This document shows, piece after piece, positions 3 to 35,314 of a stretch of 36,992 nt of DNA. The notes under the pieces are model-generated. The model was not told the DNA's origin, did not search any database, and saw only the letters and a program-made list of their open reading frames with translations. The position numbers and the translations under genes are program-made. Within the stretch, counting starts at the first letter, position 1. Each line of letters starts with the position of its first letter. This DNA is from a virus. The stretch is from positions 1-36,992 of the IMG/VR virus record IMGVR_UViG_3300021437_000055. One strand, written 5' to 3'.

Positions 3-3000
3 GTAAAAGTTGGCGACCCTTCTATTCTATATATCGATGATGGATCAGGATTTCAACCTTCATTTGCAGGTCAATCTGTAGACTCATTATTGAGTAATGC
101 AACAGGTAAAGAGGAGTTTTTACAACTCTCTAATTACCCAGTGCCTCGTCCTCAAGTTATAAATGTAGATCAAGGCCCATTTACTATTAAAAATGGATCT
201 TTTTTAAGAGTTATAGTAGACGGAAGTGAAGAAACAATTTATTTCAATACTTCTGATTTCCTTAATATTTCTGCAGCTACTCTATCTGAGGTCATTGTTG
301 CAATTAATGCACAATCTACTTCTTTTAAGGCTCGTTTTGTAAATACTTCAAATAACATTTTGTTATATCCAGTTGCTCATGATGCTGAAGTAATTCAGGT
401 GACACCGCTTCGCACAAGTGACGATTCAACTCTATATGTTAACACAGTATTAAAATTTCCAACCGATGAGTTCAGTTATATTGCTCTTTATCAAAATGCT
501 AATCGTCTTCATGAAAAAGCTAAAAGTGCTACTTTAATTACTAGCGCTTACGCTCAATGGAATGTTAATGCTACAAGCAATATTGTTATTGCTGTTGATA
601 ATACTCCAGCACAAGATCGTAACTTTGCATTAAGTGATTTTGCAGGAGCTTCATCTTTCGCGTCTCTTACTATTAATGATTGGGTTACAGCTTTTAATGC
701 TAAGTTTGCTGGTCTTACAGCAACTGCAACACCAAGTCAAACTATGGTGATCGTTTCTAATAAAACTGGAGCTGAGAGTTCTATTGTTGTATCAGGTGGA
801 ACACTTCTTAATAAATGGTTTCCAAACCTACCATTATCAAGTTCAGGTCAAACTGCTCAGTTTGAGTTAAATAGACAAACTGGTAATTTAAGAATCCTTA
901 ATACAATAGCAGCTGGAGATAATATTTCTGCTGGCGTTGAAGATGCTAAGGGATTTGAAATATCTACATCTACAAGTAATGGAACATATAATCTTTCTTC
1001 AGATTCAGTAGGACGTCCTGCTGAGATGGTGATTGTGGTTGATTCTACAGTTTGTAATCAAGTCTCTATACCATTATTAATTGGCGGAACTATCTCAATA
1101 TCTAATCCTGGTGCAAGCACTATGAGAGTTATCGCAAGTTCGGCTGATGCTTTTGCATCATTAAAACCTGGTAATTTTATTTATATTGTTGCAAGAAACT
1201 CTGGTTGGGTTAATGCAAATAATTCTGGACTTTTTAAAATAAAAGCTAAAGGTGGACATACTTCTGCAGGAGTTGATTCTTTTGTGGATGTCGAGAATAT
1301 TAACGTAGTTACTGAGAGCGGTATAGTAATCGCTGACTCTTTAGATATTAAAGGTTTTGAAACTGATGGTTTTCCACAAATTTGGCGTGGAGCTTATCTT
1401 AATAATCCACCAGCTGAACCAATTACTGGAGTTGTTGCATCTTTAAACAAAGATATATCTGGTGTTTTAGCTAGCATATATAAATCAAATTCAATTAAAT
1501 TAACCTCAACTGCCGAACATAGCGGAAGTATTGCTATTCCAGTCTCTATTAGTAATGCTTCAGTAGTTTTTGCTGAAACTGTTTCTGCGCAATCAGGAAA
1601 TCCTCCTCATATTGCTACAAGAATTTCAGATAAAACCCTTGTTGGTATGTTTAAACGTTCTGCTGTAACTGGTCTTAATGTTTTCTTAGGAAGACATATT
1701 TATTCAGATGTGAAAGGTTCACTCTCTAGTGCTTCTGCACCTGATGCTTCACCTTTCTCTGGAACATACGGCGAAATAGTAGAATCAACTGGAGTATTGA
1801 CTCCAGGTAATGTTGGATATGATGACTATATCTCTTTTACAAGAGGCGATAATAGAAATCAATTTAAAACAATTAAAGCAAAAATTGCAACTGATAAAGT
1901 TGGAACTCAACAAGGTACAGCTCATACAGAGTTAGATCATATTGTTGGAGATGAAGTTGAATTGGTTCGTCCAATATCTATATCATCCGATGATAGCATT
2001 GTTGTTGTAATGGATAAAGATGCAACAATTAAAACTGTTGATGTTCGTATGGCAAGAACTGGTCGTGTAAACTCTGGATCTGGTGCAGGATCATTTAATC
2101 CTACAACTACGGAATTTTCTGCATTTGATCAAGATAATGAGCCAGGAATTGATTTTAATAATTTAACTGTTTGGGGAACAAGTATTAATAATACTGATTT
2201 CTCTGATTATGCTGTTTGGATGAAAGCACGCAACTGGTATTCAACTAATGGTGTGTCTGGTTCTGGTGGAAAAATGATCGTTAGGTCTCAACAATATGGA
2301 CCAAATGGTGAAAAGTTACGTTTCGCACTAGCTTATCCTACAAGCGTTAATCAAAATCCAACAACGACCTTTTTAAATACCCCTTCATATAGTTTATTGT
2401 CTTACTTTTTTGGATCTGGTTCTGCTAGAGCAACAGCATTATCTTCTGGATATACTGTTGCAGTAAAAGGCCCATACCCTGATTCTTCAACTAATTTCCC
2501 TAATGGATCTTCTGGTTCAGGTAATTATTATGATTACACTTTTTCTTCTGGCACTTTAGCTGCAGTCACTATTGGCGATATCTTATCTATTTCTAGTGGA
2601 TCTGGTATCTCTAATGCGAATATGGGTCAATTCCGCATAGAAAATAAAAGTGGATTAACTGTACGTGTAGCAAATCCAAATGCTTCAACTACAGCAGCCG
2701 GCGCTCAAGAAGTTACAACTATCACTACAGTTGCTGACATTGTTGGAACTCCAACACAATATGTCATTAATACTGTTGCTGATATTGCTGGCTCTTTACA
2801 TCAAAAATATTTTATAGTTTATGACTCCCAGGGGTCTGTGGCCGTTTGGTATGATATAAACAATACCGGAGCAATTGCTCCGTCTGCAGGGGCTAATCGT
2901 TATGTTAAAGTTGCAACTGTTGTAACTGGAGATTCTGCAGATAATGTCGCAACAAAGACAGCACAAGTTTTAGCATTAGATAATGCTTTCTCTGAAAGCG

Positions 3001-6000
3001 CAATTACAAATCAAATCACTATTACAAATATAATTAATGGTGCTTTAGCTTCTGCAAGTGCTGGAACTTCTGGTTTTAGTGTATCTTCGAGCACAGGTAC
3101 AAATGACAATTCTCTTGATGGTAAATACTTTATTATCAATGATGAGAATGGATCTGTAGCTGTTTGGTATGACGTAGGAGATGATGGAACATCTGAACCA
3201 TTCCATGGTGCAGATAGATCTATTCGTGTCGCTGGTGTGAATTTCGGCGATTCTGCAACCACAGTTGCTGCAGCAACGGTTGCGGCTATAAATCCTGATA
3301 TTTTATTTACAGCATCTAATTTATTAAATGTTATTACTATTACTAATGTAGCAAATGGTAATGTACCAGATGCAACTGCTGGAACTTCTGGTTTTAGCAT
3401 GTCTTCAGTAAGTGGATCTCTCCCTACATCTGAACTTATTACTAATGCAGGAAATATAGTTATGTTTCCATTGGTTGGAAACGATGTTCAAACTATAGCA
3501 GATACTGTAAATGCAGGCACTGTAATTGAAATTGCGCCAGTAGGTAGTCCATCACTTACAATCGATAGATCAACCGTTCAAGAGTTTTATAACTATAGTG
3601 GAAATTCTACAGCATTAGCTTATGGACATAATCCAACAGCTGAAAGTACTCGTAATCATATTAATTTATATGATGGAGTTAATTGGGTTAAGAGTTTCCA
3701 AAATACAAATCCTAACTTTACAATGAAAAAAGCTTTCACATTAAATGGTGTAGCTTCTTCTGTTTATCAAATGGATACAGCTCCAAATTATAATACTTCT
3801 GACTTAGGTGAGATGGTTAAATTAATACCAGTTAGCGTTAAAAACGTACATCATCATTTAACTCAGAAAGCACTATCACAGCTTCCTATTATCTCTAATA
3901 TTAGAATCTCTCAAGATCGCAAAAATGTTCAGATTACTTCTAAACAACTTGGTTCTGCTGGAGCTATTGAAGTTATTGGTGGAAATGCTAATAAAGCTCA
4001 AGCATATATTTTTGGAGAATCTGAAGTTGCATCTGACACAAGTGGCGACTATTTATTAATGAAAATCCCTGCTTTCCCAGACACTTTTAACACAGGTGAT
4101 TACATTAAGATTGAAAATGATGCGGGAGTTAAAAGATTAAGTCGATTATCTTCTACTGACAGTATTGATGTAACTAGTCCTTCTTCTAATATAATTGAAT
4201 ATAATTTTAATCCAAAGGCGATTGGTGCACTTTCAAGCACCCAATTCACTATATCCGATGTTTCTGGATCTTATGGAAGACCTGCAGGCTTTGTATGGCG
4301 TTGGGAACATGACGGATCAGCCACACTTTCACAAGTTAAAGCTGGTGATCAAGTGTTTGCTTTTGGCAATACTTTATCTTGGGCACAAGGAAATAAGGTT
4401 CGAAATGGTGGAGACGGTTTAGTAGCTGGTCTTCCAATTATTGCAGTAAATGATTCTGCTAATCACTTTGATGTAGTAAATCCTTATGGAAAGGCTATGA
4501 GCTCTACAGCTATTGGTGCTGGTAATACAGTTCAAATCTGCCCTACGCCTATAATTAAATGGAATCTTGCTCATGCAAGTCGAGTTAGTATATCATCTAT
4601 AGTGCGGAGTTCTAATACAATTACTGTTATTGCGTCTGCTCCTCATTATTTAAATTCTGGAGATAATGTTGACATAATTGATAGCAATAATATTGCAGAT
4701 GGATCTTATGGTCCTATTACAGTCACTAGTTCTAATCAATTTACATTTACACTCTCTGGTTCAAATTTTACAGAAGCATCTGTTGGAGCTTCTTTAATTA
4801 AAGATGGCCTAGTCCCTACTCGTTATCGTATAGAGAAACTTGGCTTTAATAGTATGGTTCGTATATCTCGTCAAGATGGCGAATCTCCAAGATTTTTAGA
4901 TTGTGGAGTAGCAGTTGATGATTACGTTATAATTGGTGGAGAATCATTTAAAGCAAACAATAACGGAAGATTCCGTGTTCTTGCAGTAGACAGTAACTCT
5001 ATTATTATAGTTAATGCTTCAGCAAGTGATGAATTAAATACAACAGTACCTTTTAATAATAAGGGTCTATCAGCAACATGGACTGCAAACGTAAATGTTG
5101 TAACCGGTATTGCTGGAACTTTTAAAAACTTAAATATTGGTGATTGGGTTAAGAAACCTGAAGATGCAGACTCTCTTTATAGACAAGTTATATCTTTTTC
5201 ACCAAGTACATCAGACACTGCTACACAAATTACACTTGGTGGAAATTATGGTGGAAGCACTGCAATATCGTCTGGTGTAAGCTATGACATGTTAAATGAC
5301 TACGATAAAGGTGTTATCCTTAAAGGACAAGAGGATCTTGTTTTCTTAGAGGGTGATGCTACAACTGCAGGTGATACTTTATTTGTACAAAATATTGTTA
5401 ACAGCAATTGGTTTAGTGTTAGCAACATGGGAAGCTTTGAAGTAACTGAAATTGGAACAAATGCTATTACTTTTAAACCTTTTATTAGAGTTGTAAATGC
5501 TGCAGGTGTTGCAGAATCTAATAGACTAATGTCTGTTGATTCTTCTGGTCTATATTTAATTGAAGGGTTAGCTAATAAGTTTTCAACTATACGTGAAATT
5601 ACAAATGTAGCATTAGATGATTTAAACTTAGAAAGACGAGCTATCTATGCGATTCCTTCTAATAGAAATTATAAATTTAGCGATGCTAATGCAACTAGTA
5701 TTACTCATATGGGTAAACTTGGATATAGCACAGATGTAACTACTGGTATCGATGGGTACTTGTATTACACAGGATTATTGCGTAGAGTTCAGCGCATAGT
5801 TGATGGATATGAACCAGATGCACAAAATTATCCTGGACGTAGAGCAGTTGGTGGAGCAATCGAAACACTTCCACCACTTATCCGCAAGATAATGATAACT
5901 ATTAATGTAACTACAAATGAAGGTGTTAACTTAGGAGATATTTCTAATAATATTAAATCTGTAGTAATTAATTACATTCAAACTTTAGGTGTTGGAGAAG

Positions 6001-6152
6001 ATGTTATCCTTTCTGAGATTATTGCTTCTATAATGTCAATTAAGGGAGTTGGGGCAGTAACATTTACTAACCCAGTTCCAAGTACAGAGCGTATAACTAT
6101 AGCTAATAATGAGAAGGCGACTATATCGCCTGAAGATATTGGAATAGCTTAA
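3..6152 (+). CDS. Giant baseplate J-like protein (5' partial)
   Basis: The reading frame is open from base 3 with no start of its own; the first available start, a TTG at 90, lies inside coding sequence, so the true N-terminus is upstream of the window. At least 2,049 residues are visible. The last ~100 residues (about 5860-6150) look like the C-terminal part of baseplate J / T4 gp47 family proteins: helices ending in the motif LGVGEDVILSEI, then IKGVGAV and a short strand region. The first visible residues (VGDPSILYIDDGSGF) fit the N-terminal part of the same family. Between them lie roughly 1,800 residues of Ser/Thr/Asn-rich, beta-predicted sequence, including a tandem ~106-residue repeat at about 2790-3420. 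Ordinary J proteins are about 300-500 residues, so this one carries a very large insertion. The stop overlaps the next ATG by one base (TAATG). The expected role is a baseplate wedge; the insertion's function is unknown. Confidence 0.75.
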   Translation, partial: VKVGDPSILYIDDGSGFQPSFAGQSVDSLLSNATGKEEFLQLSNYPVPRPQVINVDQGPFTIKNGSFLRVIVDGSEETIYFNTSDFLNISAATLSEVIVAINAQSTSFKARFVNTSNNILLYPVAHDAEVIQVTPLRTSDDSTLYVNTVLKFPTDEFSYIALYQNANRLHEKAKSATLITSAYAQWNVNATSNIVIAVDNTPAQDRNFALSDFAGASSFASLTINDWVTAFNAKFAGLTATATPSQTMVIVSNKTGAESSIVVSGGTLLNKWFPNLPLSSSGQTAQFELNRQTGNLRILNTIAAGDNISAGVEDAKGFEISTSTSNGTYNLSSDSVGRPAEMVIVVDSTVCNQVSIPLLIGGTISISNPGASTMRVIASSADAFASLKPGNFIYIVARNSGWVNANNSGLFKIKAKGGHTSAGVDSFVDVENINVVTESGIVIADSLDIKGFETDGFPQIWRGAYLNNPPAEPITGVVASLNKDISGVLASIYKSNSIKLTSTAEHSGSIAIPVSISNASVVFAETVSAQSGNPPHIATRISDKTLVGMFKRSAVTGLNVFLGRHIYSDVKGSLSSASAPDASPFSGTYGEIVESTGVLTPGNVGYDDYISFTRGDNRNQFKTIKAKIATDKVGTQQGTAHTELDHIVGDEVELVRPISISSDDSIVVVMDKDATIKTVDVRMARTGRVNSGSGAGSFNPTTTEFSAFDQDNEPGIDFNNLTVWGTSINNTDFSDYAVWMKARNWYSTNGVSGSGGKMIVRSQQYGPNGEKLRFALAYPTSVNQNPTTTFLNTPSYSLLSYFFGSGSARATALSSGYTVAVKGPYPDSSTNFPNGSSGSGNYYDYTFSSGTLAAVTIGDILSISSGSGISNANMGQFRIENKSGLTVRVANPNASTTAAGAQEVTTITTVADIVGTPTQYVINTVADIAGSLHQKYFIVYDSQGSVAVWYDINNTGAIAPSAGANRYVKVATVVTGDSADNVATKTAQVLALDNAFSESAITNQITITNIINGALASASAGTSGFSVSSSTGTNDNSLDGKYFIINDENGSVAVWYDVGDDGTSEPFHGADRSIRVAGVNFGDSATTVAAATVAAINPDILFTASNLLNVITITNVANGNVPDATAGTSGFSMSSVSGSLPTSELITNAGNIVMFPLVGNDVQTIADTVNAGTVIEIAPVGSPSLTIDRSTVQEFYNYSGNSTALAYGHNPTAESTRNHINLYDGVNWVKSFQNTNPNFTMKKAFTLNGVASSVYQMDTAPNYNTSDLGEMVKLIPVSVKNVHHHLTQKALSQLPIISNIRISQDRKNVQITSKQLGSAGAIEVIGGNANKAQAYIFGESEVASDTSGDYLLMKIPAFPDTFNTGDYIKIENDAGVKRLSRLSSTDSIDVTSPSSNIIEYNFNPKAIGALSSTQFTISDVSGSYGRPAGFVWRWEHDGSATLSQVKAGDQVFAFGNTLSWAQGNKVRNGGDGLVAGLPIIAVNDSANHFDVVNPYGKAMSSTAIGAGNTVQICPTPIIKWNLAHASRVSISSIVRSSNTITVIASAPHYLNSGDNVDIIDSNNIADGSYGPITVTSSNQFTFTLSGSNFTEASVGASLIKDGLVPTRYRIEKLGFNSMVRISRQDGESPRFLDCGVAVDDYVIIGGESFKANNNGRFRVLAVDSNSIIIVNASASDELNTTVPFNNKGLSATWTANVNVVTGIAGTFKNLNIGDWVKKPEDADSLYRQVISFSPSTSDTATQITLGGNYGGSTAISSGVSYDMLNDYDKGVILKGQEDLVFLEGDATTAGDTLFVQNIVNSNWFSVSNMGSFEVTEIGTNAITFKPFIRVVNAAGVAESNRLMSVDSSGLYLIEGLANKFSTIREITNVALDDLNLERRAIYAIPSNRNYKFSDANATSITHMGKLGYSTDVTTGIDGYLYYTGLLRRVQRIVDGYEPDAQNYPGRRAVGGAIETLPPLIRKIMITINVTTNEGVNLGDISNNIKSVVINYIQTLGVGEDVILSEIIASIMSIKGVGAVTFTNPVPSTERITIANNEKATISPEDIGIA
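2790..3420 (+). repeat. Tandem ~106-residue protein repeat inside baseplate gene
   Basis: Two adjacent units (about 2790-3108 and 3109-3420) encode similar beta-rich modules. Each begins with KYFI followed by D..GSVAVWYD, continues with GA.R...V and GDSA..VA, and ends with ITNxxNG and AGTSGFS. The DNA has diverged, so the duplication is old. Boundaries are approximate. Confidence 0.75.
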
Positions 6153-8464
6153 TGGCAAATAATAAAGGCAAAATAGATCAGATTCATGACTTATTACCAG
6201 GGCACTTACACTCAAAGACTAATACTAATTGGAAAGCTTTAGTTGATGCTCTTGGTGAACAAGATCAGAATACAGCAGACCTTGTAACAGAGGTGCGAAA
6301 GCAATTCTTTGTTAAGACTGCGTCTAGACCATATTTAGATCGTTTAGCAGCAAATAATAAAATTGCTCGTCCACGATTAGTTGGCATGGATGATCCATCT
6401 TTTAGACAATACATTCCTGTACTCTCTTATCAACCTAAACAGGTTAAACTTATAATAGATCAATTGCTTGATATTTTCTTTTTTAAAGAGAGTACTACAG
6501 CCTTTATGACGTCTATAGCCTTCCAACCTTTTAATTTAAACAACGGTTGGGAATTAGAGTTTTCAGTTGATGAAAATAATATTGATAGAGTTATATTTAA
6601 AACATCTGATTTTACAGATATTAATAAGGCATCAGCTGATGAAATAGTCGCTGCAATCAATCGTCAAACTAAGTACTGTTATGCAACAGCATATTATGAC
6701 AGCATATCTAAAAACACTTTTATTAGAATTTTCAGTACAACAGTAGGCTCTAAAGGATCTTTGCGGATTCTTGGTGGACGTGCTAATACGGCTCTTCGTT
6801 TTAATGGCTTTATTAATGATGCTGGAAATGGTTCAAATACAGAATGGACTGTTTCAAAAATTGGAGATCAAGCTACTTTTACAAATACAGGTGGGGCCGA
6901 CCCTGGCATTGATAAATTACAAGTAGGTGATTTAGCAATTATTGATTTACCCAATAATCAAGGGTCTTTTGTTATTTCTGATGTCAATCTTGTTGACAGT
7001 AGTATTACATTTACTAACTTGTTCGCAACAACCGGTGTATTCACTAACACTAGCTCTGATGATATTAAATTTGTTAGACCTCAAAAGTTTGTCGCATACC
7101 TTAATCCTAGAAGAGCTATGACGTGGGAAACTTCACCTGGTGAAGTAACTGTTGAAATGCCAACTTCTCCACCAGTTGTTAAAAGATCTCTTCAAGGATC
7201 AGCCCATATAAATGGCGCTTTTAGTCAAATGACTAATAGGAACAGCGATACATCTCTTGATGTAGCGGACGCCTTTCAATTTCCTGAGTCTGGAACTTTT
7301 TGGATTGAGAGAGTTGATGAAATTCAAGAAAGAATTTTAACATCAACGGAAAATCAAATTGTCTCAAAGAAGATAAATACACGCTTACAACATCAAATTG
7401 ATAGATATGAATATACCAGTAGAGCTTCACTTACTACTTTAGGTACAATCACTGTAGATACTAATCAAATTACTGTTGCTTCAACTTCTGGAGTAAACAT
7501 TGGTGACCAGGTTATCCACCCTTTCTTTCCAGCCTATACTAGAGTAACTAACATTGTCGGTTTAGTTGTAGACTTATCTTTTCCAGCCATAGCAAGCGGT
7601 GTAGGTGAGACTATTAAATTTTTAGGTAATACTTTGCAAGGAATTATTCCAAATTTACCTCAAGCCTCTAGCTTAAATGAATTTACTCTTAGCTCTATGT
7701 CACGTACAGGTAATTTAGTAACAGCTACAACCTTAACTCCACACGGATATTTAGTAGGTGAGACTGTTATTATTTCTGGCAATAGTGGCATCAGTGGTGA
7801 TGACATGAATGTAAGTAAAGTAATTACAGCAGTAACTTCAAATACTTTTAGTTATATTAAGCTTGGTGTAGATGGCACTGCAATTACACCAGGTACTGCA
7901 AGAGTTGAAAGAGTTGGTTTGGCCAACTCTGGATCTAAAATTATAGTAGCAGACGGTATATCTAATAATGTCAGTCGAATCACTGGGACATACATTTGGG
8001 ATCAAGCTGCTACATTTGTCTTATCATCAAATACAGCACAAATTTCAGATGCCATACAAGCCGGTAAGATTGTTAGACTTTTAAATGTATCTTCAAACAC
8101 CATTTCTAAAGATGGTGGATATTTAATTTTTGATTATGGGAGAAGTACTCAAGAGGGGCCAGTTCGCTTTTTATATAAGCCAACTGACAACACTATTGCT
8201 TTAGATCCTTCTTATACATTTAAACATAGCCATACCGCTAATTCGCCTATTGTTGCTATTAGTCGTAAAGGCCCTCATCAAATGAGCGGTCGGGCTACTG
8301 AATATCCTCCATATATAACAGATCCATCAGAAGCAAGGTTTATTCTTCAAGATTTGATCCGTTCTGTTAAGTCAGCTGGTATTTTTGTAAATTTCTTGGT
8401 TCGTTACCCAGAGCAATTGTATGCTACATTAGATGTGTATCAAAGCGGCATAGATCCTGGTTAA
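6152..8464 (+). CDS. Baseplate/tail protein following J (gpI-like N-terminus)
   Basis: A 770-residue protein whose ATG overlaps the preceding stop, which implies translational coupling. The first ~120 residues are helical, with the pattern of a tail protein that pairs with baseplate J: a length-defining segment (ALGEQDQNTADLVTEVRKQF), then YLDRLAANN and RPR, and a segment about joining positions. In P2-like and SPO1-like phages the gene after J encodes gpI or an equivalent, so position agrees. The remaining ~650 residues are beta-rich and adhesin-like. Residues near 125-220 resemble a module near the start of the visible baseplate J sequence (VDxxx..F.TSDF.DI.....EIVAAIN). A segment near residues 515-575 (PHGYLVGETVIISG) resembles modules in both flanking structural genes. 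The role as a baseplate wedge is inferred; the exact family is uncertain. Confidence 0.55.
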   Translation: MANNKGKIDQIHDLLPGHLHSKTNTNWKALVDALGEQDQNTADLVTEVRKQFFVKTASRPYLDRLAANNKIARPRLVGMDDPSFRQYIPVLSYQPKQVKLIIDQLLDIFFFKESTTAFMTSIAFQPFNLNNGWELEFSVDENNIDRVIFKTSDFTDINKASADEIVAAINRQTKYCYATAYYDSISKNTFIRIFSTTVGSKGSLRILGGRANTALRFNGFINDAGNGSNTEWTVSKIGDQATFTNTGGADPGIDKLQVGDLAIIDLPNNQGSFVISDVNLVDSSITFTNLFATTGVFTNTSSDDIKFVRPQKFVAYLNPRRAMTWETSPGEVTVEMPTSPPVVKRSLQGSAHINGAFSQMTNRNSDTSLDVADAFQFPESGTFWIERVDEIQERILTSTENQIVSKKINTRLQHQIDRYEYTSRASLTTLGTITVDTNQITVASTSGVNIGDQVIHPFFPAYTRVTNIVGLVVDLSFPAIASGVGETIKFLGNTLQGIIPNLPQASSLNEFTLSSMSRTGNLVTATTLTPHGYLVGETVIISGNSGISGDDMNVSKVITAVTSNTFSYIKLGVDGTAITPGTARVERVGLANSGSKIIVADGISNNVSRITGTYIWDQAATFVLSSNTAQISDAIQAGKIVRLLNVSSNTISKDGGYLIFDYGRSTQEGPVRFLYKPTDNTIALDPSYTFKHSHTANSPIVAISRKGPHQMSGRATEYPPYITDPSEARFILQDLIRSVKSAGIFVNFLVRYPEQLYATLDVYQSGIDPG

Positions 8465-26328: not shown

Positions 26329-27732
26329 ATGAAGATAACAGTTAATAATGATTATACAAATATCTCTGGAGCAACTCCACAGTTAATACAAACTTTGCAA
26401 TCTGAGTTAACTTATACAGATAAGGCTAAACAATATCAGTTGCGCAGATTATCTAGAACAGTTTGGGGAAGAACATCTCCATTGTATAAACAATTGCAAC
26501 AAGAAGTACAGGGCAAACTATACACCATGAATGGAAACGACATGATGATTAGTTCTGCTTTTTATGGATATTTGTTAGAGAACTTTCCTAATGAAATGAA
26601 GATGGCAAGCATATTAGATAATAGAAAACACACTGGAGCTAAGATTGTAGTTCCATGGGTTAATAAGCCTCACCCATTACGACCATATCAACAAGAGGCA
26701 GTTGATCTTATGTTATCAAACTATAGGGGAGTTATTAACTTTGCTACTGGTTTAGGTAAGACATTGGTTGCAACTCATTTAGTTCAACAGTATAAAAAGC
26801 GGACATTAGTAGTTTGTCCTAGTGATTCAGTTGCAAAACAATTTTATGATCAATTTGTTGAGTGCTTTGGAAAAAAGAAGGTTGGTTTTTATGGGGGCGG
26901 AAAAAAGCAAATTAGTGAAATTACGGTTGGCATTGCTGCTTCTGTCTCTAAATATGTATCCGAATTCCAAGCAGCAGATCTTGGTCTGGTTATTTTCGAC
27001 GAGACTCATCACACTCCAGCAACTACTTTTTTTGACATCGCAGAGGGACTTAGAGGAGTTGGTAAGATATTTGGACTCACTGCAACCGACTACAGATCAG
27101 ATGGAAAAGACATAATGATTACTGGCGGCTGTGGACATGTCCTTATTCGTAGAGATATTAAATGGGGTGTTGAGAATGGTTTCTTAGCAGAACCATATTT
27201 CATTATTCGTGAAATTCCTACTGCTGGTAGAGACTTTAAAGATGATAAACTTAAATCATATAAAGAACATGTTCTTAATAATCAGATAATGAAATCTAGA
27301 ATTGAAGGCGATGCAAAAGCAATGATGGCATCTGGCAAAGCAGTGTTAATTCTTGTAGATGAAGTAGCTCATGGAGAAGAACTCTCTAAAGCCCTTGGTA
27401 TTCCTTTTGCTACAGGTCTTGATAAGAAATCACAATCTTATGTTGATGATCTTAATGCAGGGAAAATACCAGGTTTAGTGGGAACTGATGGCAAGGTTGG
27501 GGAAGGAACAGATACGAAAAATGTCGATGTCCTTATCTTGGCTAACTTTGTTGCTTCAAAGGGACCAGTTACACAAGCTATTGGACGCGGATTGCGGAAG
27601 CAGGGTACAAAGACTAAATGCTTAATACTTGACTATATCCCAATGGGATCTACTATGTTAAGTAGGCATGCAAATAACCGGATTGGTTTTTATGAAGAAA
27701 TCACCGATAAAGTAAAGGTAATTACAATATGA
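26329..27732 (+). CDS. SF2 DNA helicase, UvsW-like
   Basis: A 467-residue helicase. Two in-frame ATGs are close together (26323 and 26329); I prefer 26329 because the promoter-like box ends exactly six bases before it. Motifs in order: LRPYQQEAV (Q-like motif), Walker A ATGLGKT near residue 139, CPSDSV (Ia), DETHH (DEAD-box variant II) near 224, GLTAT (III) near 245, and QAIGRGLR (VI) near 416. This order is typical of the SF2 family that includes T4 UvsW, which rewinds and remodels branched DNA and R-loops during recombination-dependent replication. It stands on the opposite strand from the DnaB-like operon, divergently transcribed. The stop TGA overlaps the next ATG. Confidence 0.85.
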   Translation: MKITVNNDYTNISGATPQLIQTLQSELTYTDKAKQYQLRRLSRTVWGRTSPLYKQLQQEVQGKLYTMNGNDMMISSAFYGYLLENFPNEMKMASILDNRKHTGAKIVVPWVNKPHPLRPYQQEAVDLMLSNYRGVINFATGLGKTLVATHLVQQYKKRTLVVCPSDSVAKQFYDQFVECFGKKKVGFYGGGKKQISEITVGIAASVSKYVSEFQAADLGLVIFDETHHTPATTFFDIAEGLRGVGKIFGLTATDYRSDGKDIMITGGCGHVLIRRDIKWGVENGFLAEPYFIIREIPTAGRDFKDDKLKSYKEHVLNNQIMKSRIEGDAKAMMASGKAVLILVDEVAHGEELSKALGIPFATGLDKKSQSYVDDLNAGKIPGLVGTDGKVGEGTDTKNVDVLILANFVASKGPVTQAIGRGLRKQGTKTKCLILDYIPMGSTMLSRHANNRIGFYEEITDKVKVITI

Positions 27733-27989
27733 TGTTAAAGAAAACTAAAAAAGAAGTTCTTGACGATATTAAAAATGCAGCCTATAGTGCAGCTTATCAA
27801 GCTGGTCAAGTTAACATAAATATTGATCAATATCAACTTCAACAAGCATTTCAAAATTCCATTAGATTAAATAATCAATTTGGCGTGCAACAAGCTATAG
27901 CCGATGCAGTTGCTGCCGGTTTTGCTAAACTTATTGAGAATACATACTTTGATGCTGAATTTGAACAAGATATCGGGCTAAAAAGCTAG
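27729..27989 (+). CDS. Small unknown protein after SF2 helicase, ends in TAG
   Basis: An 86-residue helical protein with a basic start (LKKTKKEVLDDIKNAAYSAAYQAG) and an Ala/Gln-rich middle. The ATG overlaps the helicase TGA by four bases; an adjacent ATG at 27732 is an alternative start. The stop is TAG (27987-27989), whose last base begins the promoter box of the next gene. A suppressor tRNA would add six residues before TAA. Function unknown. Confidence 0.6.
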   Translation: MMLKKTKKEVLDDIKNAAYSAAYQAGQVNINIDQYQLQQAFQNSIRLNNQFGVQQAIADAVAAGFAKLIENTYFDAEFEQDIGLKS

Positions 27990-28000: not shown

Positions 28001-29446
28001 ATGCCTTTAAGTAATAAAGATTTATCAGATATAGCTAAAGAATTTGCAGTTGCCAAGGGAGATCTTGGTAACGATAAGAATGCTATTCCTAATATTCAAA
28101 CGCAAGTATCTGCAAAAGATGAACAAGCATCTAGAATATATGTTTTATACAATAATGCTCATGTAGAGAGAATTACACCTTATGAAACTGAACATCGCTG
28201 GATTGATGGAACTACATATACTACAATTACTCAATCTCAAATAGAAACATTTGGAACCGATGGAAGATCAACATATTTCTTTCCAACATCTTGGACAAAG
28301 AGCAATCCGCAAATACAAGCCAATGCAAATGGTAATCCTAAAACATCAAGTATTAATAGTGAATCATCTGTATTAAATAACACTATCGCTTCAAATGGTT
28401 TAATTTCTCAAATTAATTTATTAAAAAACGGCATTACAGGATCAAATGCAACGACAACTACACAAAATACATTATATAATATTCCCGCTGGGATAGTTTC
28501 AAATATGCAGATCGATGTACAAAGCACATCTGGTTTTAGTGCTGGACAATTTATATATATAAATTTAGGATCAAGTAGTGGTTTATATTTGCTAGATTCT
28601 GTAACTTCTCAACATTTATTTATTAGTAGTGTAATTCCATCTCAACTTGGTTTTTCAAGTGTTGGTGCAACGATACGTAATACTGTAGTAGGTTTTACTA
28701 ATAGCGAAAGACAAACGCTTATTTCTAATTTATATCAAGAATTACTTACAAATCTCACAAATAGAATTAAAAATGCAGCCACATTATGGGATACTGCTTT
28801 AACTAATCAATTATCACAATTAAATATTAATATTGATCAACCATCACAAATTGCATCAGCAAAAACTTCTGTTAATGCCGCTAAATCTGCGTATTCTGTA
28901 TGGTTTGCTCTTTCTGATACAGGTTCTTCTGGTAAATTTGTCGACACAAGTTTAACAAATTTAGCAACAGCATACAATAATAGAATCTCTGGGTTTGCTT
29001 CAAGAACAAACCAGATCACTGCAGCTTTAGGTTCAGTATCTCAAGATGCTGAAGGTGTTTATTCTGGGACAGGTAATTATTTACAGAGATTCAAATGCCT
29101 TGGATTCCTTATAAATACAGCCAATGGGCCAATTTATCAAGCCAATGGTTTAAAGGCAGCTAAGACTAATTTTGAAGATAAAGTTAAAAGTACTACTGAT
29201 AAGTTAGCAACTTTTAGTAACTTAGTTCGCTATGCTGGGTCAACTAAGGATCCAGTTGGAAATACTTTAGAAGTTGAAGGTGTTTCTCAATTTGCAATAA
29301 ATGATGCTGTAGTTTTAACGGCTAATGATAAAGCCTCTATTGAATGCACTATTACCAGTATTTTAGGGAATATTGTCACCCTAAGTGCAACAATTCCTAA
29401 AGAATATAATAAAGCCTCTAAAGTTGGAATTATAAAGAAAGTTTAG
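28001..29446 (+). CDS. Probable virion structural protein, ends in TAG
   Basis: A 481-residue Asn/Ser/Thr-rich protein, compositionally like the fibre and baseplate proteins. It starts with a helical region (MPLSNKDLSDIAKEF), has a beta-rich middle (NTLYNIPAGIVSNMQIDV, SGQFIYINLGSSSGLYLLD), a long helical segment around residues 235-390 with coiled-coil character, and ends with a short beta domain (VEGVSQFAINDAVVLTAND, IVTLSATIPKEYNKASKVG) of a kind seen at the ends of tail proteins. It lies apart from the structural cluster, between a helicase and an endolysin. No Shine-Dalgarno; the promoter box predicts a leaderless mRNA. TAG stop at 29444-29446. Confidence 0.55.
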   Translation: MPLSNKDLSDIAKEFAVAKGDLGNDKNAIPNIQTQVSAKDEQASRIYVLYNNAHVERITPYETEHRWIDGTTYTTITQSQIETFGTDGRSTYFFPTSWTKSNPQIQANANGNPKTSSINSESSVLNNTIASNGLISQINLLKNGITGSNATTTTQNTLYNIPAGIVSNMQIDVQSTSGFSAGQFIYINLGSSSGLYLLDSVTSQHLFISSVIPSQLGFSSVGATIRNTVVGFTNSERQTLISNLYQELLTNLTNRIKNAATLWDTALTNQLSQLNINIDQPSQIASAKTSVNAAKSAYSVWFALSDTGSSGKFVDTSLTNLATAYNNRISGFASRTNQITAALGSVSQDAEGVYSGTGNYLQRFKCLGFLINTANGPIYQANGLKAAKTNFEDKVKSTTDKLATFSNLVRYAGSTKDPVGNTLEVEGVSQFAINDAVVLTANDKASIECTITSILGNIVTLSATIPKEYNKASKVGIIKKV

Positions 29447-29460: not shown

Positions 29461-30012
29461 ATGAGAAAAGTGAACAAAGCTGGTATAGATTTAGTTAAGG
29501 GATTCGAGGGTTTATTCTTAAAACCTTACTTAGACCCTATTAAAATCCCAACTATTGGCTATGGAACTATTCAATATGAAGATGGTACTAAAGTATCTAT
29601 GCAAGATCCAGCTATCTCTGAAGAGAGAGCAGTTGAACTTTTACAATTTGAAATTAATAAAAAATCATCAGCAATTGAATCTTTAATTAAAGTACCAATC
29701 AATGATAATGAATTTGCTGCTTTAGCATCATTCTCTTATAATGTTGGAAGTGGAGCACTTGGCGGATCAACCTTATTGAAGTTATTAAATGCAGGGACTG
29801 ATCGTACTGCAGTTGCTGATCAATTCTTACGTTGGGATAAGGCTGGCGGACAACAACTCCCTGGACTAACTAGAAGACGTCAGGCTGAGCGTTCACTTTT
29901 TCTACAGCCAATGGTAGAATCTAACACTGATACGTTATTACCGGATGGACCGAGTGAAGACGATATTAATAACAAATTAAAAGATTTGGAGGACGAGATT
30001 ATGAAAAAATAG
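29461..30012 (+). CDS. Endolysin, GH24 (T4-lysozyme-type), ends in TAG
   Basis: A 183-residue muramidase. The catalytic triad is visible with T4 lysozyme spacing: E16 (GFEG), D25 (YLDP) and T31 (PTIGYGT). The rest of the fold follows (FAALASFSYNVGSGAL, LPGLTRRRQAERSLF). It cleaves the glycan strands of peptidoglycan at lysis. No signal peptide or signal-anchor is seen, so a holin elsewhere is expected. A charged C-terminal tail of ~30 residues extends past the catalytic domain. The mRNA is predicted leaderless. The stop is TAG; suppression would add six residues (IADKPP) before TAA. No holin is evident next to it. Confidence 0.9.
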   Translation: MRKVNKAGIDLVKGFEGLFLKPYLDPIKIPTIGYGTIQYEDGTKVSMQDPAISEERAVELLQFEINKKSSAIESLIKVPINDNEFAALASFSYNVGSGALGGSTLLKLLNAGTDRTAVADQFLRWDKAGGQQLPGLTRRRQAERSLFLQPMVESNTDTLLPDGPSEDDINNKLKDLEDEIMKK

Positions 30013-30090
30013 ATTGCCGATAAGCCTCCGTAACTACCCTAATTAAGTATCAAGATTAATCAATAAATCAACTTAACTTAGGAGAAATGA

Positions 30091-30390
30091 ATGAAAACTC
30101 ATTTAACAAAATTAAAAGCAGAACTTAAAGTTCTTGCATCTGAAATTAGACAATTAAAATCAACACGTAAACAATGTCCTCACGGATATGTATCAGGTTT
30201 GAGTAATGCTCAAAACGAATTTCGCATTAAACATATTGCAAGATGTATGTTACGTGGCAGAACATTAGAACAAATCGAACCAAAACTTAGAGACCCAAAC
30301 GATTATAATCATGCTTATGTACGTAAACAAGCAGCTAAAATCGTAGCAGATATATTGGAGGCAGTAAATGCACAAGCCAATATCGCATAA
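30091..30390 (+). CDS. Unknown protein upstream of Pth2-like gene
   Basis: A 99-residue basic protein with a helical start (LTKLKAELKVLASEIRQLK) and a C-terminal helix (VRKQAAKIVADILEAV). An RHIARCMLRGRTLEQIEP-like segment (near residue 50) could be a nucleic-acid-binding helical pair but this is a guess. ATG 30091 follows TAGGAGAAATGA, a good ribosome site. Its 3' end overlaps the next gene by 23 bases. Confidence 0.55.
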   Translation: MKTHLTKLKAELKVLASEIRQLKSTRKQCPHGYVSGLSNAQNEFRIKHIARCMLRGRTLEQIEPKLRDPNDYNHAYVRKQAAKIVADILEAVNAQANIA

Positions 30391-30667
30391 GCTTTATATT
30401 CTTATCGATAAAACATTAAAACCATCGCAGCAGGCCGTTCAGGCCTGCCATGCGGCAATTGAGTTTGCAAAAGCATATCCAGATTGGAAGCATGAAAGCT
30501 TAGTCCTTTTAGGGGTGAGTTGTGAAAGAGAGCTGCTTGATTATTATAAACGTATCCTGGGAGGTTGTATGAGAACAGCATTCACTGAACCTCATTGGGA
30601 TAATCGCATGACTGCTGTAGCTTGCTATGGATGTGATGAATACGTTAAAGATTTGAATTTAATTTAA
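30368..30667 (+). CDS. Pth2-like peptidyl-tRNA hydrolase family protein
   Basis: A 99-residue protein beginning MHKPISHKLYILIDKTLKPSQQ. The pattern (K)LYxxxxxxLxxxQQAVQACHAA matches the start of the Pth2 fold (archaeal/eukaryotic-type peptidyl-tRNA hydrolase), whose first strand and helix carry the QxxHA signature. Later strands (SLVLLGVSCE, MTAVACYGCDE) also fit. At 99 residues it is slightly shorter than the usual ~115-120. Members remove peptides from stalled peptidyl-tRNA; some phage relatives may have other substrates. GGAGG is seven bases before ATG 30368. It is directly upstream of the tRNA island, so a tRNA-related role is a sensible inference. Confidence 0.65.
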   Translation: MHKPISHKLYILIDKTLKPSQQAVQACHAAIEFAKAYPDWKHESLVLLGVSCERELLDYYKRILGGCMRTAFTEPHWDNRMTAVACYGCDEYVKDLNLI

Positions 30668-30673
30668 TTACAT

Positions 30674-30818
30674 GCCCGAATAGCTCAGAAGGTCTAAAAG
30701 GTTATTGTGTGTACAGCAATAGTTGAGTCGAGAACGCCTATCAAGGTGGTAGAGTACCGTTATAAGTCCGCGTAATTACCGGCATCGGGGGTCGCAGGTT
30801 CGAGTCCTGCTTCGGGCA
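30674..30818 (+). tRNA. tRNA-like gene with ~70 extra internal bases
   Basis: The ends are those of a tRNA: acceptor strands GCCCGAA (30674-30680) and TTCGGGC (30811-30817), T8 and A9, D-stem GCTC (30683-30686), and a perfect T arm GCAGG-TTCGAGT-CCTGC (30794-30810). Between the D-stem start and the T arm are 107 bases, where a normal class I tRNA has about 36. A second D-like half GGTAGAGT (30748-30755) suggests an insertion of about 54-57 bases in the D loop. Even after its removal the anticodon region is about 15 bases too long and gives no clean anticodon stem. An alternative reading gives an anticodon GTA at 30711-30713 with a weak D arm. After the discriminator A the sequence is CCCA, so CCA is not cleanly encoded. 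It may be a split, intron-bearing or decayed tRNA. Confidence 0.45.
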
Positions 30819-31042: not shown

Positions 31043-31119
31043 GTTCCAGTAGCTCAGTTGGTTAGAGCAGCGTTCTCTAAAAACGATGGTCGTGGGTTCG
31101 AGTCCCATCTGGAGCTCCA
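31043..31119 (+). tRNA. tRNA with anticodon CUA (amber suppressor)
   Basis: A canonical 77-base tRNA: acceptor GTTCCAG/CTGGAGC, T8 A9, D-stem GCTC/GAGC, anticodon stem GCGTT/AACGA (four pairs plus one G-A mismatch at the top), loop CTCTAAA with T33 followed by anticodon CTA (31077-31079) and A37, variable loop TGGTC, T arm GTGGG-TTCGAGT-CCCAT, discriminator T73 and encoded CCA. CUA reads UAG. The amino acid cannot be assigned from the sequence; a U73 discriminator is not typical of Gln, Leu, Trp or Tyr tRNAs. The gene lies directly after the candidate RNA, and no separate promoter is visible, so it may be processed from a readthrough transcript. Confidence 0.85.
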
Positions 31120-33577: not shown

Positions 33578-35314
33578 ATGTCAATTTACGAAAAAAGTAA
33601 AGCAAAAAATATAACAGCAGATAGACAAAAGATTAAGAAGATTGTTCAAGATACTATTATGTTAATGGCTGACTCTGTCGGTGCAACATTGGGACCTGGT
33701 GGAAGACCAGTAATTATTGAGCGAGATAACTTATCTCCACTTATTACAAAAGATGGAGTTACTGTTGCTAAGTCATTAGGTGTTGAGAATGCTGAAGCTA
33801 ATGTTATTATTGATGCTGCAAAAGAGATCTGTTTAAAGACTGCTAAAGAGGCAGGTGACGGTACAACAACAGCTATTGTCCTTGCTGGTGCAATTACAAG
33901 ACATGGATTAAACTTCCTTGAAACAAACCCTAAATATAATCCTCAACGTATGGTTAATGAACTTAATGAATTATATACTGGGGTTATAGTTCCATTTCTT
34001 AAAACAAATGCAAAACCAGTTAAAGGTAAAGAAGAACTTATCTCTGTAGCTAAGATTTCAGCCAATGGTGATCAGGCTATTGCTGAAGCAGCAGTTACTG
34101 CTGTAATGGCTGCAGGCGAAGATGGGCATGTTCTTATTGAAGAAGCTCAAGGTAATCAATTAAAAGTTGAGACAATGGATGGTTTTGTTGTAACATCTGG
34201 ACTAAAAGATATTGGTGCTATTGGTCGCGTATTCATTAATGACCGTGGTTTACAACAAACCAAGATGGATAAAGGGTTAGTATTTCTTTATGATGGTACA
34301 CTCAATGATCTCAAGGTTCCAGGCGCTATACAACAAGCAATCGAAGGAACTGAACTCTTCGGATTGCCAATTATGGTTTTCGCACACGGCTTTGCTGATG
34401 TTGTTATTGAAGCTTTTGCCAAAACTACAAAAGGCGGATATACAGTTGTACCTGTTAAAACTCCAATGTCTGGGGCAGCAAATTCAAGATCCTCATTCCT
34501 CATTGATATGTCTGCATATACTGGAGCAACTGTCTATGATCCCGGAACAATAGATAAGTTTATAACAGAAGATTCTTCTTCTGGTTTTGGTGCTTTTGAT
34601 AGTGCTAAGGTTGGAATGTATGAATCTGTTGTCCAAGCTCTTCCTGATTCTGACAAGATTGATGCTCGATTGGCTGAATTAAAACATTTAATGGATACAA
34701 GTCCATCTGATTTTGATAAGATGCATATTAAGGCAGCAATTGCTAAACTTACAGGTGGTATTTCAACTATCTGGGTTGGCGGTGGTTCTGAATTAGAAGC
34801 TCGTGAGAAACGAGATCGTGTTGAAGATGCTGTTGAGGCAGTTAAATCTGCTATTGCAGAAGGCATTGTCCCTGGTGGATGTGCTGTTCAACTAACATTA
34901 TCATACATAATTTCATTAAATCCTAATAAGAAACCTTCTTGGGATATCATGGCACAAGCATTAGCAGAACCATTTAATCTTTTATTAAATAACTGTGGTG
35001 AAAATGTAGATGAAGTATGGCCTAGCATTGGACCACATATTCATCTTTGTGCACTATCTAAAACAATGCCAACTCAAGTTTTTGATGCAAATCAACATAT
35101 TTTTGTTGATCCATTAACAGTTGGTATCGTTGAACCGGCTAAAGTATGTCGAGTAACAATCGGCAATGCTTTATCGGTAGCATCTTTGTTAGTAACATTA
35201 GGCGGGATCGTAGTTGCTCCGCGTAATGCTGGTTTAGAACAACAACTTGAGCTCTCAAAAGGAGCCTTTAAAGAAATGATGTCCGCTTCTACCGGACACG
35301 TAGGACAGGAGTAA
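33578..35314 (+). CDS. groEL: Phage GroEL-like chaperonin
   Basis: A 578-residue group I chaperonin (E. coli GroEL has 548). Equatorial-domain ATP site: TLGPGGRPVII near residues 37-47, KDGVTVAK with D59 (GroEL D52), GDGTTT with D94 (GroEL D87), and RVEDAV near residue 417, which carries the hydrolytic Asp of GroEL D398. C-terminal VPGG and the helix SKGAFKEMM are present, but the GGM tail is absent. ATG 33578 follows AAGAAGG. It probably folds phage structural proteins in host cytoplasm. No GroES-like gene is seen; the 102-residue gene that follows has a membrane anchor and is not one, so it may use host GroES or another lid. Confidence 0.9.
   Translation: MSIYEKSKAKNITADRQKIKKIVQDTIMLMADSVGATLGPGGRPVIIERDNLSPLITKDGVTVAKSLGVENAEANVIIDAAKEICLKTAKEAGDGTTTAIVLAGAITRHGLNFLETNPKYNPQRMVNELNELYTGVIVPFLKTNAKPVKGKEELISVAKISANGDQAIAEAAVTAVMAAGEDGHVLIEEAQGNQLKVETMDGFVVTSGLKDIGAIGRVFINDRGLQQTKMDKGLVFLYDGTLNDLKVPGAIQQAIEGTELFGLPIMVFAHGFADVVIEAFAKTTKGGYTVVPVKTPMSGAANSRSSFLIDMSAYTGATVYDPGTIDKFITEDSSSGFGAFDSAKVGMYESVVQALPDSDKIDARLAELKHLMDTSPSDFDKMHIKAAIAKLTGGISTIWVGGGSELEAREKRDRVEDAVEAVKSAIAEGIVPGGCAVQLTLSYIISLNPNKKPSWDIMAQALAEPFNLLLNNCGENVDEVWPSIGPHIHLCALSKTMPTQVFDANQHIFVDPLTVGIVEPAKVCRVTIGNALSVASLLVTLGGIVVAPRNAGLEQQLELSKGAFKEMMSASTGHVGQE

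Follow-up and report, generated by a model that had tools for sequence, protein, structure and literature searches.

What does a tRNA that reads the stop codon UAG do in a phage that keeps the standard genetic code? The question is raised by a tRNA with anticodon CUA at positions 31043-31119 of the window, the term used here for the whole 36,992-base virus fragment analyzed (all window features described below lie on the + strand). The window includes tail genes and genes for a helicase, lysozyme, dUTPase, methyltransferase and GroEL-like chaperonin and, based on the contigs of its relatives, is a piece of a phage family of approximately 150-177 kb with a standard code. Through the GroEL-like protein, 56 viral loci were reached, several of them on contigs of 146-177 kb. 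One of these contigs is contained in a Cytophagales metagenome bin, a weak hint of a Cytophagales host for the family. The right third of the window had no near DNA-level match among deposited phages. The chaperonin itself (33578-35314) shared approximately 30-34% identity with other phage GroELs, and 57-84% inside the family.

A conserved CUA tRNA

ARAGORN called a single tRNA in the window, at the position and with the anticodon (CTA) of the original prediction, and Rfam RF00005 matched at 31043-31116 (60.3 bits, E 8e-11), confirming that the tRNA is real. The stem CGTT/AACG, the seven-base loop CTCTAAA, U33 and U73 had all been read correctly, and a CCA end is encoded as well. The molecule is thus predicted to be a UAG-reading tRNA, with a cloverleaf and the CUA triplet in a 7-nt loop with U33. 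Among 25 distinct CUA tRNAs found at the same locus in relatives, the bases TCTAA (33-37) were invariant, at a mean column identity of 75%; since the anticodon loop is invariant while other positions vary widely, the CUA tRNA cannot be attributed to chance. Position 73 was U, A or G among these homologues, so they probably do not all carry the same amino acid, in line with the earlier statement that it could not be predicted.

UAG is an ordinary stop codon

One explanation for such a tRNA is a change of code, in which phage genes would have UAG reassigned to an amino acid, as is known from Lak and some crAss-like phages. CUA tRNAs are the hallmark of code-15 phages (PMC9523058), and Lak loci have a gene for a Pth2-like protein, a type also encoded beside the tRNA analyzed here, near a UUA tRNA. 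The usage of stop codons argues against this explanation. The 27 genes called in the window end in TAA (20), TGA (4) or TAG (3: 27729-27989, 28001-29446 and 29461-30012), one TAG short of the "at least four" originally counted. In genomes or fragments of relatives bearing the tRNA, TAG terminated approximately 10-21% of genes, against 2-30% in relatives lacking it, representing neither enrichment nor depletion. Reading TAG as sense did not produce a coding density gain consistently above that of TGA as sense in the relatives, whereas genuine recoding, in a Lak control, raised density from 0.60 to 0.89. The search for in-frame TAG, extended to the relatives, was negative: in a restricted test (the unrestricted version was swamped by antisense frames), TAG was spanned by conserved alignments no more often (5/278) than TGA (6/234) or TAA (19/465). 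An FmdB-like/SbcC-like gene pair joined in frame across TAG in some relatives was rejected as chance adjacency, since TAA or TGA and other frames occur at the junction in other relatives.

Taken together, stop usage, coding density and cross-stop alignments indicate that TAG is an ordinary stop in this family; no gene needs recoding, the features that define code 15 are absent, and no recoded gene offers an alternative target for the CUA tRNA. A change of code is, on these grounds, extremely improbable. Two possibilities had been raised by the original prediction. Recoding of genes outside the window is not supported, given that TAG works as an ordinary stop in relatives of 146-177 kb, while partial suppression used for regulation gained support from a UAG at 30010-30012, the proposed target, located before a hairpin at a ribosome-binding site.

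Two observations concerned TGA. In G002 (54599, +), a conserved protein showed TGA where its homologue in G003 has Trp (PPHQ-stop-FWQE vs. PPHQWFWQE), a single case that may be an error. In a 15-kb stretch of L218 (LR745208), where the stop-reading tRNA has anticodon TTA, density rose from 0.85 to 0.94 with TGA as sense, and TGA may be recoded there.

Proteins linked to the CUA tRNA

Clustering of the genes of relatives with and without the tRNA resulted in one protein family limited to tRNA-bearing members. It is represented in the window by two short genes of 99 amino acids each, one for a helical protein (30091-30390) with the motif RHKHIAYC-LRGRTLEQIE and one for a Pth2-like protein (30368-30667), which in most relatives are fused into a single protein of approximately 188 residues, with the helical part as its N-terminal domain. 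Both parts were present in 28 records with a CUA tRNA and neither part in approximately 20 without it, considering all records that cover the lysozyme-dUTPase interval; several of these records are near copies, so the counts are not independent events. Incomplete or exceptional records were L025 (Pth2-like gene at the contig edge, no tRNA called), L041 (tRNA at the contig edge) and L207 (no tRNA called). In L041, 32 tRNAs were clustered at 274-8052, in the interval bounded by the edge of the locus and the dUTPase gene; one of them is a CUA tRNA, and together they serve nearly all amino acids. The order of the conserved cassette is leader, hairpin, helical protein, Pth2-like protein, a tRNA-like RNA lacking an anticodon, and CUA tRNA.

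Modelled with AlphaFold2 (pLDDT 90.8), the fused protein showed the fold of Pth2, a peptidyl-tRNA hydrolase, in its C-terminal half, with Z values of 11.3 to 1q7s (human Bit1/Pth2) and 10.8 to 1xty (the Sulfolobus enzyme), and the profile of the phage homologues (A3) matched solved Pth2s with E 1e-7. The window protein was below the threshold of Pfam PF01981 (14.7 vs. 23), and the homologues from XacN1, ScoobyDoobyDoo and LR756500 were above it. Both sequence and modelled fold therefore point to a relationship with Pth2 (PF01981). The lysine of the GKxxAQ motif is essential in the Pth2s that have been studied; in the phage group this position is occupied by Q, L or Y, and for this reason the protein is referred to as Pth2-like rather than Pth2. 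Searches with the helical domain gave nothing beyond generic helical matches, and no family was retrieved from Pfam, NCBIfam, PHROG or PDB. A different branch has, instead of the helical domain, a gene with an HD-like motif (HDxGKP...HFPNHA) that is fused to the Pth2-like domain or overlaps it (L208, XacN1 ORF364; L215, CM1; L212, ME3_194; L216, Arash gp83; L219, CBB_407).

A UAG leader ending in Pro-Pro-stop

The lysozyme (endolysin) gene (29461-30012; Pfam Phage_lysozyme, 5.9e-40) ends, in the sub-clade of the window, at the UAG of a short leader. This leader (30001-30033), whose beginning is also the lysozyme 3' end, consists of ATG AAA AAA UAG ATT GCC GAT AAG CCT CCG UAA, or M-K-K-(UAG)-I-A-D-K-P-P-stop, with the UAG at 30010-30012 and the Pro-Pro-stop (CCT CCG TAA) at 30025-30033. 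Throughout the sub-clade, the lysozyme UAG opens a tail of 5-15 codons that ends in Pro-Pro-stop (IADKPP, MLKPP, IREPP, IAKKPP, NANSQLASAYADRPP). Pro-Pro-ended tails were found in only 8 of 3,058 ORFs, and six of the eight are the sub-clade lysozymes. The Pro codons vary synonymously (CCTCCG, CCGCCT, CCACCC, CCACCT, CCTCCT), as does the last stop, and the Pro-Pro-stop is kept.

In the remaining relatives the leader stands alone, as a minigene that has a Shine-Dalgarno sequence of its own, such as ATG AAC UAG GTT AAC AAG CCT CCC UAA in L019. The consensus is Met-x-UAG-[Ile/Val]-x-x-Pro-Pro-stop, with the UAG placed in frame after one to three codons. The pattern UAG...Pro-Pro-stop preceded the helical-protein gene by 50-73 nt in 28 of the 30 cassette regions (0.20 expected from shuffles), and the leader was found at the cassette in all ten tRNA-bearing genomes or fragments and in none of seven relatives without the tRNA (0.84 Mb). 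In L004, tRNA and proteins were present and the Pro-Pro motif was absent. Judged from sequence, a short open leader is thus held at a near-fixed distance from the next gene, as would be expected of an attenuator. No account of such a leader was found in the literature searched, which included few subscription papers. C-terminal Pro-Pro is known to interfere with termination in Escherichia coli (PMC2998420).

The coincidence of leader and lysozyme end suggests another explanation, control of lysis timing, in which the lysozyme made by readthrough, now ending in Pro-Pro, would be stalled and marked for degradation, the tRNA thereby delaying lysis. In addition to the shared 3' end in the window's sub-clade, 8 of 19 distinct lysozymes from tRNA-bearing relatives end in TAG (p 0.002, uncorrected for approximately 100 gene families). 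Yet in most relatives, as well as in the phages Summit and DSS3_MAL1 and in large phages with Pth2-like genes, the leader is a minigene free of any lysozyme, and the constant feature is its distance to the next small gene, which makes this explanation unlikely.

A predicted hairpin over the ribosome-binding site

The spacer between leader and helical-protein gene contains a predicted hairpin (30038-30082; CCTAATTAAGT / ACTTAA-TTAGG) that starts 4 nt past the Pro-Pro stop and in which the ribosome-binding site of the following gene is partly paired. The Shine-Dalgarno sequence of this gene, AGGAG, lies at 30080-30084, upstream of the gene start at 30091. In single-sequence folds, all 23 distinct spacers of the family formed a hairpin starting at the stop or a few bases from it (mean z -2.9), with the Shine-Dalgarno sequence paired in 22 of them, usually within the 3' arm. 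The stems themselves differ in sequence (TTAAG/CTTAA, TAGTT/AACTA, GTTAATG/CATTAAC, CCATTATA/TAATAAATGG). The spacers of 16 other phages gave a mean z of -3.5, and in those where no Shine-Dalgarno sequence was visible the stem tended to extend towards the start codon. Individual folds could be weak (z -1.2 for the window, -0.7 for Summit). RNAalifold found zero consensus pairs on the MAFFT alignment of spacers (A7), so the hairpin rests on the single-sequence folds, which are consistent with a putative structure sequestering the ribosome-binding site at the leader cassettes.

Same partners in unrelated phages

The leader was found by inspection among many features. Its recurrence in unrelated phages and the controls for strand and stop codon were established afterwards, and these later tests consequently carry more weight. 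Across 80 loci with Pth2-like genes, all 24 UAG minigenes found were on the sense strand and none on the antisense strand, and no minigene had UAA or UGA in the UAG slot. The small gene located 48-136 nt after the leader at these loci encodes either a homologue of the helical protein or a member of one of two other families. One of these small families begins MKTLEQK...AQHLF (behind the UAG-Pro-Pro-stop leaders of L331, L348, L349, L351, L356 and L358), and the other has RPTLRNINTFLG...KGDFYKN (L352, L355, L364, L365, L367 and L372).

The leader was also present in Summit (MK-UAG-VYKPP), DSS3_MAL1 (MKS-UAG-IRPPP) and OLIVR1 (UAG-IKKPP). Among distant helical-protein loci, only 3 of 49 had the leader. 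The idea that these distant genes are generally preceded by a Pro-Pro-stop leader in which a sense codon takes the place of UAG was rejected: 5 of the 49 loci had a Pro-Pro-stop leader, and three of the five are the UAG leaders.

The tRNA accompanies the proteins as well. The distance from the Pth2-like gene to a CUA tRNA was 130-180 nt in the Mycobacterium phages Myrna and ScoobyDoobyDoo, approximately 420 nt in the Acinetobacter phage ME3, 0.8 kb in a metagenomic phage of 462 kb and 1 kb in the Salmonella phage Arash; in Lak phages and LR745208 the nearby tRNA is a UUA tRNA. A helical protein without Pth2 was found 114 nt from a CUA tRNA in DSS3_MAL1 and 6 nt from the suppressor tRNA in Summit. 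The helical proteins of Summit and the window are only weakly similar when compared alone (E 0.4), and the case for their homology is based on the shared leader, motif and position. OLIVR1, an Agrobacterium phage, also lacks Pth2; approximately 100 nt before its helical-protein gene it has a tRNA, annotated as tRNA-Val, with an eight-base anticodon loop called as CCTA (L243, 5812-5888), which could read UAG or the four-base UAGG.

In IMG/VR, 41 of 54 distinct Pth2-like loci had, no more than 3 kb away, a tRNA that reads a stop codon (CTA; TTA in one case). Stop-reading tRNAs compared with other tRNAs as 36:48 within 1 kb of the Pth2-like gene and as 10:101 beyond (Fisher p 3e-8), and for helical-protein loci 13:13 within 200 nt and 2:56 beyond (Fisher p 1e-6). 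As exceptions, LR745206, LR756502 and PBECO4 had a Pth2-like gene and no suppressor in the tRNA-bearing stretches scanned, even though the first two have leaders, and in XacN1 the two CUA tRNAs and the Pth2-like gene are far apart.

A GCA (Cys) tRNA was close to the CUA tRNA in many Pth2-like loci (L336-L344, L348, L349, L351, L357 and L366). CUA tRNAs were mislabelled in deposited records, as tRNA-Phe in Arash (L216, 9304) and tRNA-Ser in Myrna (L214, 5463), so surveys based on annotation would miss them.

A tRNA-like RNA without an anticodon

A second RNA element of the cassette, missed by the original prediction, was located at 30674-30818. It is tRNA-like (Rfam tRNA, 36.7 bits), with acceptor, D and T arms, interrupted by a large D-loop insert, and with no normal anticodon arm. 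Many members of the family have such an RNA near the CUA tRNA, with a perfect acceptor stem, D and T arms and usually CCA, the anticodon arm being replaced by a longer hairpin, with a GNRA or UUCG loop at its tip in some cases, or by a domain of approximately 110 nt. Eleven short versions keep every acceptor and T-stem pair; in 24 cells both sides of a pair had changed in a compensatory manner, against 7.1 in shuffles, a level attained by 0 of 500 shuffles. Neither ARAGORN nor Rfam called a tmRNA at 30674-30818, and a group I intron, ribozyme or riboswitch within the long form was rejected, having no Rfam match.

This RNA could suggest that the cassette counters host tRNA-cleaving defences, with the Pth2-like protein freeing jammed peptidyl-tRNA, as suggested for a jumbo-phage PTH2 (PMC7824862), and the tRNA and tRNA-like RNA acting as decoys. 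The Pth2 fold and the presence of an anticodon-less RNA within the cassette are consistent with such a role. A decoy, however, should mimic sense tRNAs, and the tRNA found near most Pth2-like genes reads a stop codon; as the UAG of the leader is also left unexplained, a clean-up or decoy function appears decidedly unlikely. The linkage of tRNA and Pth2-like gene could alternatively reflect a termination independent of release factor 1 (RF1), in which the peptide would pass to tRNA-CUA at UAG, to be cleaved off afterwards by the Pth2-like protein; the identity of the amino acid would then seem irrelevant, as the variation at position 73 suggests. We consider this very improbable, in view of a Pro-Pro-stop and a hairpin that it neither needs nor explains, and of the replacement of the canonical Pth2 lysine.

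Proposed translational switch

The evidence described above makes it quite probable that a translational attenuator, with the CUA tRNA as its input, controls the helical/Pth2-like protein. From the tRNA, the leader with its Pro-Pro-stop, their linkage and the controls, we infer a course of readthrough, stalling and hairpin opening based on sequence. By default, RF1 would end translation of the leader at UAG, mostly 18-24 nt before the hairpin, which would stay closed. When charged tRNA-CUA beats RF1 at this codon, the ribosome would continue and dwell at the Pro-Pro-stop. A stalled ribosome protects approximately 12-15 nt beyond its P site (PMC8012679), and a footprint of this kind at the Pro-Pro-stop would melt the 5' arm of the hairpin and free the Shine-Dalgarno sequence, so that the helical/Pth2-like protein would be translated. 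The sign of the switch (readthrough = on) is suggested by this geometry. The switch would in effect gauge the supply of tRNA-CUA against RF1, and any inserted amino acid might do, in agreement with the variation at position 73.

In the most speculative step, the Pth2-like protein would act back on peptidyl-tRNA, either of the stalled leader or of other readthrough events, closing a feedback loop; this is proposed because the Pth2 fold binds peptidyl-tRNA ends. On balance, we lean towards the broader view that many large phages carry a "signal tRNA" whose main or only job is the UAG of one regulatory leader, sensing the phage's own tRNA supply against host RF1, with the Pth2-like protein as the output and possibly the feedback arm.

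Discussion

TnaC, ErmCL and SecM belong to a class of ribosome-stalling leader peptides that act as translational attenuators. The proposed switch would share with this class a short leader, a programmed stall, a hairpin over the next ribosome-binding site and a short fixed spacing. It would differ in its stall motif, Pro-Pro-stop, and in its input: instead of an amino acid, an antibiotic or the secretion state, the signal would be a stop codon decoded by the phage's own tRNA in competition with the release factor. The output protein resembles archaeal and eukaryotic Pth2 in its fold (Z approximately 11) and in the conserved Q and H of the AAQxxH motif, but differs from them in the loss of the lysine, in having EPD in place of the DAG region and in its linkage or fusion to a helical or HD-like domain.

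As in code-15 phages (crAss-like, Lak), the tRNA with anticodon CUA or UUA is phage-borne; unlike them, the phages described here keep the standard code and would use one regulatory UAG instead of many reassigned codons. Closer parallels are Stenotrophomonas phage Summit and Xanthomonas phage XacN1, standard-code phages with a CUA tRNA, for whose suppressor tRNAs the authors found no target gene (PMC9022506 and PMC5852040, respectively). Summit shares the leader, 61 nt upstream of gp69, which lies 6 nt before the tRNA, while no leader was found upstream of the Pth2-like gene in XacN1.

The leader thus provides a candidate target for the unexplained suppressor tRNA of Summit and, in unrelated phages, the proposed target is a UAG/Pro-Pro-stop leader of seven to ten codons upstream of a dedicated protein. 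If true, gene expression would here be controlled through stop-codon decoding, which would itself serve as the signal. Since some recoded phages also have a Pth2-like protein near a stop-reading tRNA, it may bear as well on the origin of stop-codon reassignment in such phages.
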